A stretch of DNA of 64,000 nucleotides from Rhizophagus irregularis. Taxonomy: Eukaryota; Glomeromycota; Glomeromycetes; Glomerales; Glomeraceae. The translations under genes and the position numbers were made by a program. Below the pieces are notes generated by a model, which did not search any database, was not told the origin of the DNA, and worked only from the letters and a program-made list of their open reading frames with translations. Shown here in pieces: positions 32,311 through 35,300 of this stretch; position 1 is the first letter of the stretch, and each line of letters starts with the position of its first letter. The stretch lies in NCBI RefSeq assembly GCF_026210795.1, contig NC_089443.1, positions 1,612,001 through 1,676,000 of the forward strand, given 5' to 3'.

Positions 32311-35300
32311 TTAAATTAACTTATCATAATGTGCAGCATTATGTGAAAGGATAAATAGTTTACCATCATCCCCTGCTACCCATAATTGTCTATTATTACC
32401 ACCTAACCTAATACATCTACCAATCAATGGTACACTAAATTCATGACTGACTTCCAAACTATTATTATTGCAAAAAAAAAAAAATAAATGTTAATAATAA
32501 ATAAATAAACATATAGATTACTTAAATTTATACAAACCTAAGAGCAAAATATACAGTAATCTGTCCTTTATCATTAGATGTAAGTATTATATTCTTATCC
32601 GGTGCAGAAATCATATGATTTAATCGATCAGATATTTTGATAAAATTAAGTAATTTTCCATTTACACTGTAAGTATGTAGAAAATATTCCTCCTAAAAAA
32701 TTTAATTGATCATTAATTATACCTTTTATTACAAATTTTAATAAATGAATAATAATGACTAACTTACGTTTACTTCTGTGTACACTATAATGTTCGCATC
32801 TTTTGATATACAAACGAATTCGACAATCGCATCCAGATCATGCAGAGGTCGCAAAGTTCGAATATAATTAGCATGTTGTAGTGAATGTACTATACATGTT
32901 CCATCCTATTTATTAAAAGTCAAATATAGAAGTGAGAATGAAATTAATATATTATGTTCAAATAACAACAATAATAATGATATCGTCTACAAACCCTGGA
33001 TCCACTTATCAAAATGTCGTGTTCCGCATTAACAACGATGCATGTAATCTGTTATTAAATAAAATTTTCCGTTATCACCTTGTTAACTGATTATAATAAA
33101 ACAATAAATCATACTATGAAAGATACCTCATCATCATGACCATAGAATGAACGTAAGGGTGTATGTTCAATATTCAAAAATTCATTATCACTTGTCAAAT
33201 TGACCTTCCATGATAATAAATTTGAACTTCTATTCCCTGTTACGATAATTCGTCCATCTTCACTTATTGCTATTGCTGTTACAACATGTGTGTAGAAGTT
33301 AAGAACAATAAATAGAGAACATAGTAAAAAAACTAAAGATATGAAAAACAAAGGATATCATCATTTCCCGAAATACTATCAATAGTTCGTCCTGTTTCAG
33401 TTAAAGTCACTTTCATTGTGTCATCCCAGTGACCAGTGCTAATGATAACTTTCCCATCTTTACTGCACGCAAAGCACCTAGGTGAGATCACTACATCATA
33501 ATAATATGGACTATCCAATTTACTAAAAGACAATAGTAATAATTAGTATATATTAATAGACATCATTATAGATTAAGCAATAATGAATATTTTAGGTACC
33601 TCTTATACTTTAAACTAGGATCAACTTCCACAGTAAAAGGTATTTCCGGTGCAGTTGATTTTCTTAAAACTCGATGACAACCAATTATACCATTTTCATC
33701 AATTGTAATAACTTGTTGCATATCACTTATAGAGTGCATTTCATTATCGGGTTTTGGTAAATCTGCCAGATGTAATCGACCACATTTCAAATCAATTAAA
33801 AACCGTTGATGTTCATGATCTGAGGATAATAAAAGATCTTTTTTCAAAAAATCTTTGCTAAGATGTCGTTTCGGATGAGGTCTAGTTAATAATTGAGTCG
33901 GAGTTTGTCCAAAATGGTAAATTTGTTGTTCTATACTCTTTCTTTCAATAGGATCTTGAACATTGTCAATATTTATTGCCCCTTCGTAAGTCAAATAATA
34001 AAATACATTATAAGCATTAACTGCTTCTTCTCCAGTTTGTTTATATCCAAAAATAAGATCTAGTTATAAAAATCATGATAAATATTAGAGTTTAAATTCG
34101 TATGAATTAATATTCTTCGAAAATTACCTATCCAATGATGTAGATTTTCCGAAACAAAATCTGATTCTAATGCTTCTCGATGAATACGTATAAATTCTTC
34201 TTGAGTCTTTGCCCACTTTGGTAAAACTACGTTATCTACACGCGTACCATCTTGTTTGACCTAATTTACATATGAATCATTAGATAAAGGTGATCTGACA
34301 ATATCAGGAATATATATATATATATAATTTTTTTTTACCCCAAGATCAAAATTATTATGATTCGTAAGAAATTCGGGATGATAAAAGAACTCCGGAATCA
34401 ATTCTCGAACATCTCCACTTGCACTAAGTACGGAATTCCATGTCTCTTGTAAAGAATGAAATTGTCTATCTGCATGATCAAATTTGCCTCCTTGCAAAGA
34501 AATATGAACAGAAGTAAATGGTTCCAATCGAATTAAATAACAAGATACGGTTGCAGCACTTGAATAATGAGTTCCATAAAAGAATTTTTTAATCCTTCCT
34601 GATGGATCTTCAAAACTCTCGTAACGTTCTACAAATTGTTCTAAACGATCGGGATTTAAAGCTCCAATTGGTTTTGTTAAATCACGATAAATACTAGGAT
34701 CAGATAAATCTAAACTTTCTGATTCATAATCATTTAAAATCCAAGGAAATACGAAATATTGTGTTAAGTCATTAAAAGATCTTCCAGCAATACTATTTAA
34801 ATGCATAAGGTATTCAAAGTTTGATATTTCATGTGTTCTCCACCGTTCAGTTAAATTTGATCTTTGAAATATTGTTTTAGGAGATTTAGTATCCTGATTT
34901 TTCATTGAACTAGGTTTGAGTGATGTAATTTTATTAAATAAACGTAATCTATCTTTCGGTTCTGAGAAATTGAAAAAATAATTTGTTTGATCCGTTAAAA
35001 ATAATTCTAACGCACTTCGTCTCAACATATAATTTCGTATATGAATTTCTCTTATGTCAGAAATTGGCCATTTTTTATCACGTAAAATCTCACTATCCAC
35101 AACTATAGATCCTTGTTCAATATTATTAAGTTCTTGCAATAAATTACGTCTATCCACAAAGAAACAAAGATGAGTTGACGTAAGTTCAATTCTTCCTTTG
35201 ATCGCAGAAAGAAGAACAATCATTTCACATTCTGTAGAGAATAATTTCATATCAGAAGAGATATCAATAGTTTCAACTACTTTATCTCCAGCTATAAGAT

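Follow-up and report, generated by a model that had tools for sequence, protein, structure and literature searches.

A neurobeachin-like gene of Rhizophagus irregularis with a probable U12-type AT-AC intron

Known minor introns and the host gene

In the textbook minor pathway, the U11 and U12 snRNAs recognise the 5' splice site and the branch site together, and U6atac then takes over the 5' site. The U12-dependent AT-AC introns of animals and plants have AT and AC termini, a 5' site of ATATCCTT and a branch site near the 3' end, all of which they share with the intron described here. The U12 branch-site consensus is TTCCTTAAC, expected about 10 to 16 nt from the 3' end of the intron.

The closest described minor introns are from the same or a sister species. 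In a survey (PMC10639083; Nucleic Acids Res. 2023), 205 minor introns were counted among 75,377 annotated R. irregularis introns, all four minor snRNAs were reported for this fungus, its minor introns showed the phase order 1 > 2 > 0 and motifs following those of animals and plants, and the two largest fungal groups were described as having no convincing minor introns. The novelty implied by the sequence-only reading is unsupported, since the four snRNAs and the 205 introns had already been published. The intron reported here thus adds a case to a class that is already described, along with its machinery, for R. irregularis; it is of phase 1, the commonest phase in that survey, and the same four snRNAs were found in both studies. 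In a literature search, no paper was found that ties U12-type introns to Glomeromycotina or to neurobeachin; further searches returned the survey above and also PMC10668435, which concerns a plant gene.

The locus lies in a 64,000-nt stretch of R. irregularis DNA, analysed as a whole and referred to below as the window; all coordinates are window positions. The gene and the part of it that matters here are as follows.

32311..40000, minus strand: host gene, neurobeachin-type BEACH/WD40, 13 exons, 2238 aa
33359..33522, minus strand: exon 8, upstream of intron 8
33288..33358, minus strand: intron 8, probable U12-type AT-AC intron, 71 nt, phase 1
33127..33287, minus strand: exon 9, remainder of the WD40 repeat interrupted by intron 8

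A Pfam scan of the C-terminal 1138 residues of the product found PH_BEACH, Beach and NBCH_WD40 in this order (E values of 4e-22, 3.2e-127 and 3.1e-41), and the product is a neurobeachin-type BEACH protein. It has all three domains in common with the Neurobeachin family; in this gene a probable minor intron falls inside a WD40 strand. When the WD40 part was searched against the PDB, 315 matches were obtained, the best 60 of which are named as general WD40 proteins. The gene model has GT-AG termini at the 11 other introns, and P0001, the public protein, is in agreement at each of them. Two other BEACH loci (L014 and L015) were considered as a paralogue check and were uninformative, as their alignment stops at about residue 1877 and leaves the WD40 strand uncovered. 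The BEACH gene has a tail-to-tail neighbour at about 29520-31817 on the plus strand, a gene with many introns that by eye resembles a cytochrome P450. Scans of the whole window with Rfam and for tRNAs gave no match and no tRNA, respectively.

Splice sites of intron 8 and the snRNAs of the genome

The elements assigned to intron 8 are listed below.

33350..33358, minus strand: 5' splice site ATATCCTTT, pairing (computed) with the 5' end of the genome's U11 and with its U6atac
33298..33305, minus strand: TTCTTAAC as branch-site sequence, its probable branch A being 33299; pairing (computed) with the genome's U12 when this A is left out
33288..33289, minus strand: 3' splice site AC (intron sequence)

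The sequence-only reading had described an exact 5' site, a branch-like site 10 nt from the end and a CACAC terminus, and each was confirmed. The intron starts with exact ATATCCTTT at 33358-33350 on the minus strand, in agreement with the ATATCCTT start of U12-type AT-AC introns, and it ends with TTCTTAACTTCTACACAC, its last letters being TACACAC at 33288, so that excision at CACAC/AT leaves an AC terminus and an open frame. The sequence TTCTTAAC at 33305-33298 leaves 10 nt to the intron end and places the likely branch A 11 nt before that end; it resembles TTCCTTRAY, matching seven of the nine consensus letters and differing at two. At 71 nt the intron would count as a short one among those of animals. 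Its removal restores the WD40 strand and keeps all 13 exons in frame, as had been claimed. The sequence-only reading did not mention that a GT-AG intron at 33349-33276 is also in frame, and "in frame" alone therefore cannot decide between the two. Retention of intron 8 as the main product is implausible, with a stop codon soon past the 5' site and a product of 2028 aa.

The frequency of these elements was compared with chance expectation. RTATCCTTT occurs four times in the window against 3.03 expected, so that the 5' motif alone is unremarkable. The full arrangement, in which 5' site, branch site and AC are correctly spaced, is present a single time in the window, and none of 150 simulated windows of 64 kb generated with a third-order Markov model contained it. 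A looser arrangement, found once in the window against a simulated mean of 0.26, is not significant by itself. At the three remaining ATATCCTTT sites (13903, 27844 and 60791), the stretch 25-250 nt downstream has no match to the branch-site patterns used. Such a match does follow three weaker RTATCC sites (10945, 41575 and 46814, plus strand of the window). A stronger argument than these counts is that intron 8 lies exactly where the protein requires an intron.

A lack of minor-spliceosome snRNAs had been named as a refutation of the claim, and a search of the genome (146.7 Mb, 32 contigs) with Rfam models found all four above their gathering scores. U12 scored 68.9 bits (gathering 53), U6atac 79.9 (33) and U4atac 55.0 (53, only just), and U11 was found at two loci with 71.9 and 55.5 bits (gathering 39; L012 1501-1641 and L013 1501-1627), the second locus possibly being a diverged copy. 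A homologue of a protein component was also found.

L016, about 680-1810 on the minus strand: six-exon gene (spliced by eye) that encodes a homologue of U11-48K (SNRNP48)

The U11-48K zinc finger was matched at C28, and since 1 of 14 control genomes (an archaeon) also matched, this domain alone is unspecific. The 245-aa homologue matched the 48-kDa protein in solved structures of U11/U12 particles (8r7n_F and four more entries) in two stretches with an E value of 3.3e-18, the runner-up being gametocyte-specific factor 1, matched in the zinc finger only (E value of 7.5e-5). Family models for PDCD7 and CCDC84 gave no match in the genome, and the control genomes were equally silent.

The snRNA genes were also inspected for their flanks. 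U12, U6atac and U4atac (L009, L010 and L011) have TCCCATAA 55-63 nt upstream and TATA[TA]A 27-34 nt upstream, an arrangement that resembles a promoter element shared by snRNA genes, and the U12 and U6atac genes have a longer upstream TCCCATAATTTTTTGAAA in common. Both U11 loci are without the exact upstream element; L012 carries TCCCACAA.

Duplex energies were computed for the splice signals. The 5' site gave -7.4 kcal/mol with U11 and -6.5 kcal/mol with U6atac, compared with -0.1 and -3.0, respectively, for the donor of the GT-AG intron at 33349-33276. The duplex of TTCTTAAC with U12 had -3.4 kcal/mol as is and -5.5 kcal/mol with the branch A left out. We propose that the 5' site would base-pair to U11, that the branch site would do so to U12 with its branch A bulged, and that U6atac would then take the place of U11. 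Excision between G/ATATCC and CACAC/AT would join GAT-G to AT-GTT-GTA, the junction falling after the first letter of an aspartate codon, and would thereby restore the WD40 strand.

Competing splice junctions

The main competitor for intron 8 is an ordinary GT-AG intron.

33276..33349, minus strand: rival GT-AG intron, GTTTTT...GTAACAG, in frame, used by P0001; judged wrong

Removal of this intron by the major spliceosome, at CTTT/GTTTTT...GTAACAG/CAATAG, would preserve the frame and yields DDILSIAIS, which is exactly what the public R. irregularis protein P0001 (2237 aa, representative of a 24-member cluster) reads. Over its 2237 residues, P0001 differs from the GT-AG translation of the host gene by nine substitutions and by no exon boundary, a closeness that indicates R. 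irregularis or a very close relative. The donor, however, matches CAG/GT[AG]AGT at only three of nine positions and is the worst of the gene, the 11 other donors matching at five to seven. The two readings were also compared on a profile built from the more distant homologues P0011-P0120, 110 rows of an alignment of the 120 homologues listed among 3356 hits. The AT-AC reading scored 308.7 bits and the GT-AG reading 295.5, a deficit of 13.2 bits, and the latter lacks a residue of a conserved WD40 strand; three further in-frame splicings scored 273.9-292.1 bits, so that 4 of the 11 listed in-frame GT-AG combinations were scored. The motif D[IVLT][VI]T, sought anywhere in the aligned fragment, was present in 108 of the 110 rows (it misses P0018 and P0073), and the AT-AC reading carries it without a gap. 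Moreover, the related fragments P0129 and P0130 read VVTTI, which leaves no room for the acceptor AG at the corresponding place, and the exact arrangement of ATATCCTTT, TTCTTAAC and AC would become an accident of a kind seen in none of the 150 simulations. We therefore consider the GT-AG intron very unlikely.

Use of both junctions, with AT-AC as the main one and GT-AG as a rare alternative that drops one residue, overlaps with the explanation that we prefer. Both junctions keep the frame, and rare reads of the second could underlie the public model; the weakness of the GT-AG donor and the absence of its acceptor at that place in the same two related fragments nevertheless make this very unlikely. 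It is also conceivable that intron 8 is an AT-AC intron removed by the major spliceosome, since U2-type AT-AC introns exist and the termini alone do not tell the two classes apart. With an exact U12-type 5' motif, a fitting branch site and matching snRNAs in the genome, this is the least probable of the alternatives and can hardly be the case.

The anatomy of the splice sites, the conservation of the protein, the fragments in which relatives read through the intron and the snRNAs found in this genome are all in line with the U12-type AT-AC reading. We infer that RNA is spliced at 33358-33288 and conclude that the neurobeachin-like gene, from R. irregularis or a very close relative, has with high probability a genuine U12-type AT-AC intron at this place. 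The prediction that GT-AG gene callers would mis-annotate the gene was borne out by P0001, which carries DDILSIAIS, and the public record thus probably splices intron 8 wrongly.

Intron 8 in related fungi and its annotation

Relatives were read as proteins, so that splice-site letters in them can be called codon-compatible only. Two read-through fragments, P0122 and P0128, keep DIL after GND, which fits G/ATATCCTT, and DIL is also present at the position of intron 8 in the Entrophospora model P0006. Together with P0129 and P0130, these two fragments keep FLT or [VI]LN followed by ..HVVT, the codons of which fit TTCTTAAC and AC/AT. The frames of P0129 and P0130 read back through (V/I)LNFF..HVVT, and no codon choice for their VVTTI gives AG at the acceptor of the GT-AG intron, an AG in a neighbouring codon being possible.

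Altered models among the listed glomeromycotan rows are those of R. irregularis (P0001), R. clarus (P0002), Funneliformis (P0003), Racocetra (P0005) and Entrophospora (P0006 and P0010). The R. clarus model reads TGRTIDTIAIS, a false GT-AG choice that is also present here at 33376-33276, and a partial Entrophospora model, P0124, starts within the altered stretch seen in P0010. The position of intron 8 is intact in P0007 and P0008 (Paraglomus), P0009 (Geosiphon), P0121 (Acaulospora) and P0004, and P0126 stops short of it. P0123 and P0127 apparently continue into intron 9 (and P0123 possibly into intron 7 as well) but are without intron 8, suggesting that these lines may lack it.

There is an even chance, in our estimate, that intron 8 is old in Glomeromycotina, with traces in Rhizophagus and Entrophospora and a presence suggested by altered models in Funneliformis and Racocetra, that it was lost or changed in Paraglomus, Geosiphon and Acaulospora, and that gene callers break it where it is kept. 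Fungal counts based on annotation would then miss such AT-AC introns, and 205 would be an undercount for R. irregularis. The program used in PMC10639083 is described as shifting the boundaries of an intron if those annotated are non-canonical and there is a strong minor 5' site no more than about 10 bp away. It would probably leave an intron with a GT-AG annotation, such as this one, unchanged. The 205 introns of that survey come from annotated introns, whereas intron 8 is GT-AG in P0001 and may be outside them.

Intron 8 provides a clean and checkable fungal example for the minor spliceosome, at a site where the public model probably gives the wrong protein. To the published picture it adds a specific gene that has probably been mis-annotated, and it hints at an undercount of AT-AC introns in arbuscular mycorrhizal fungi. 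If the pattern is general, several public BEACH models in these fungi would need correction at the same spot, and the published number of minor introns for arbuscular mycorrhizal fungi would be too low.
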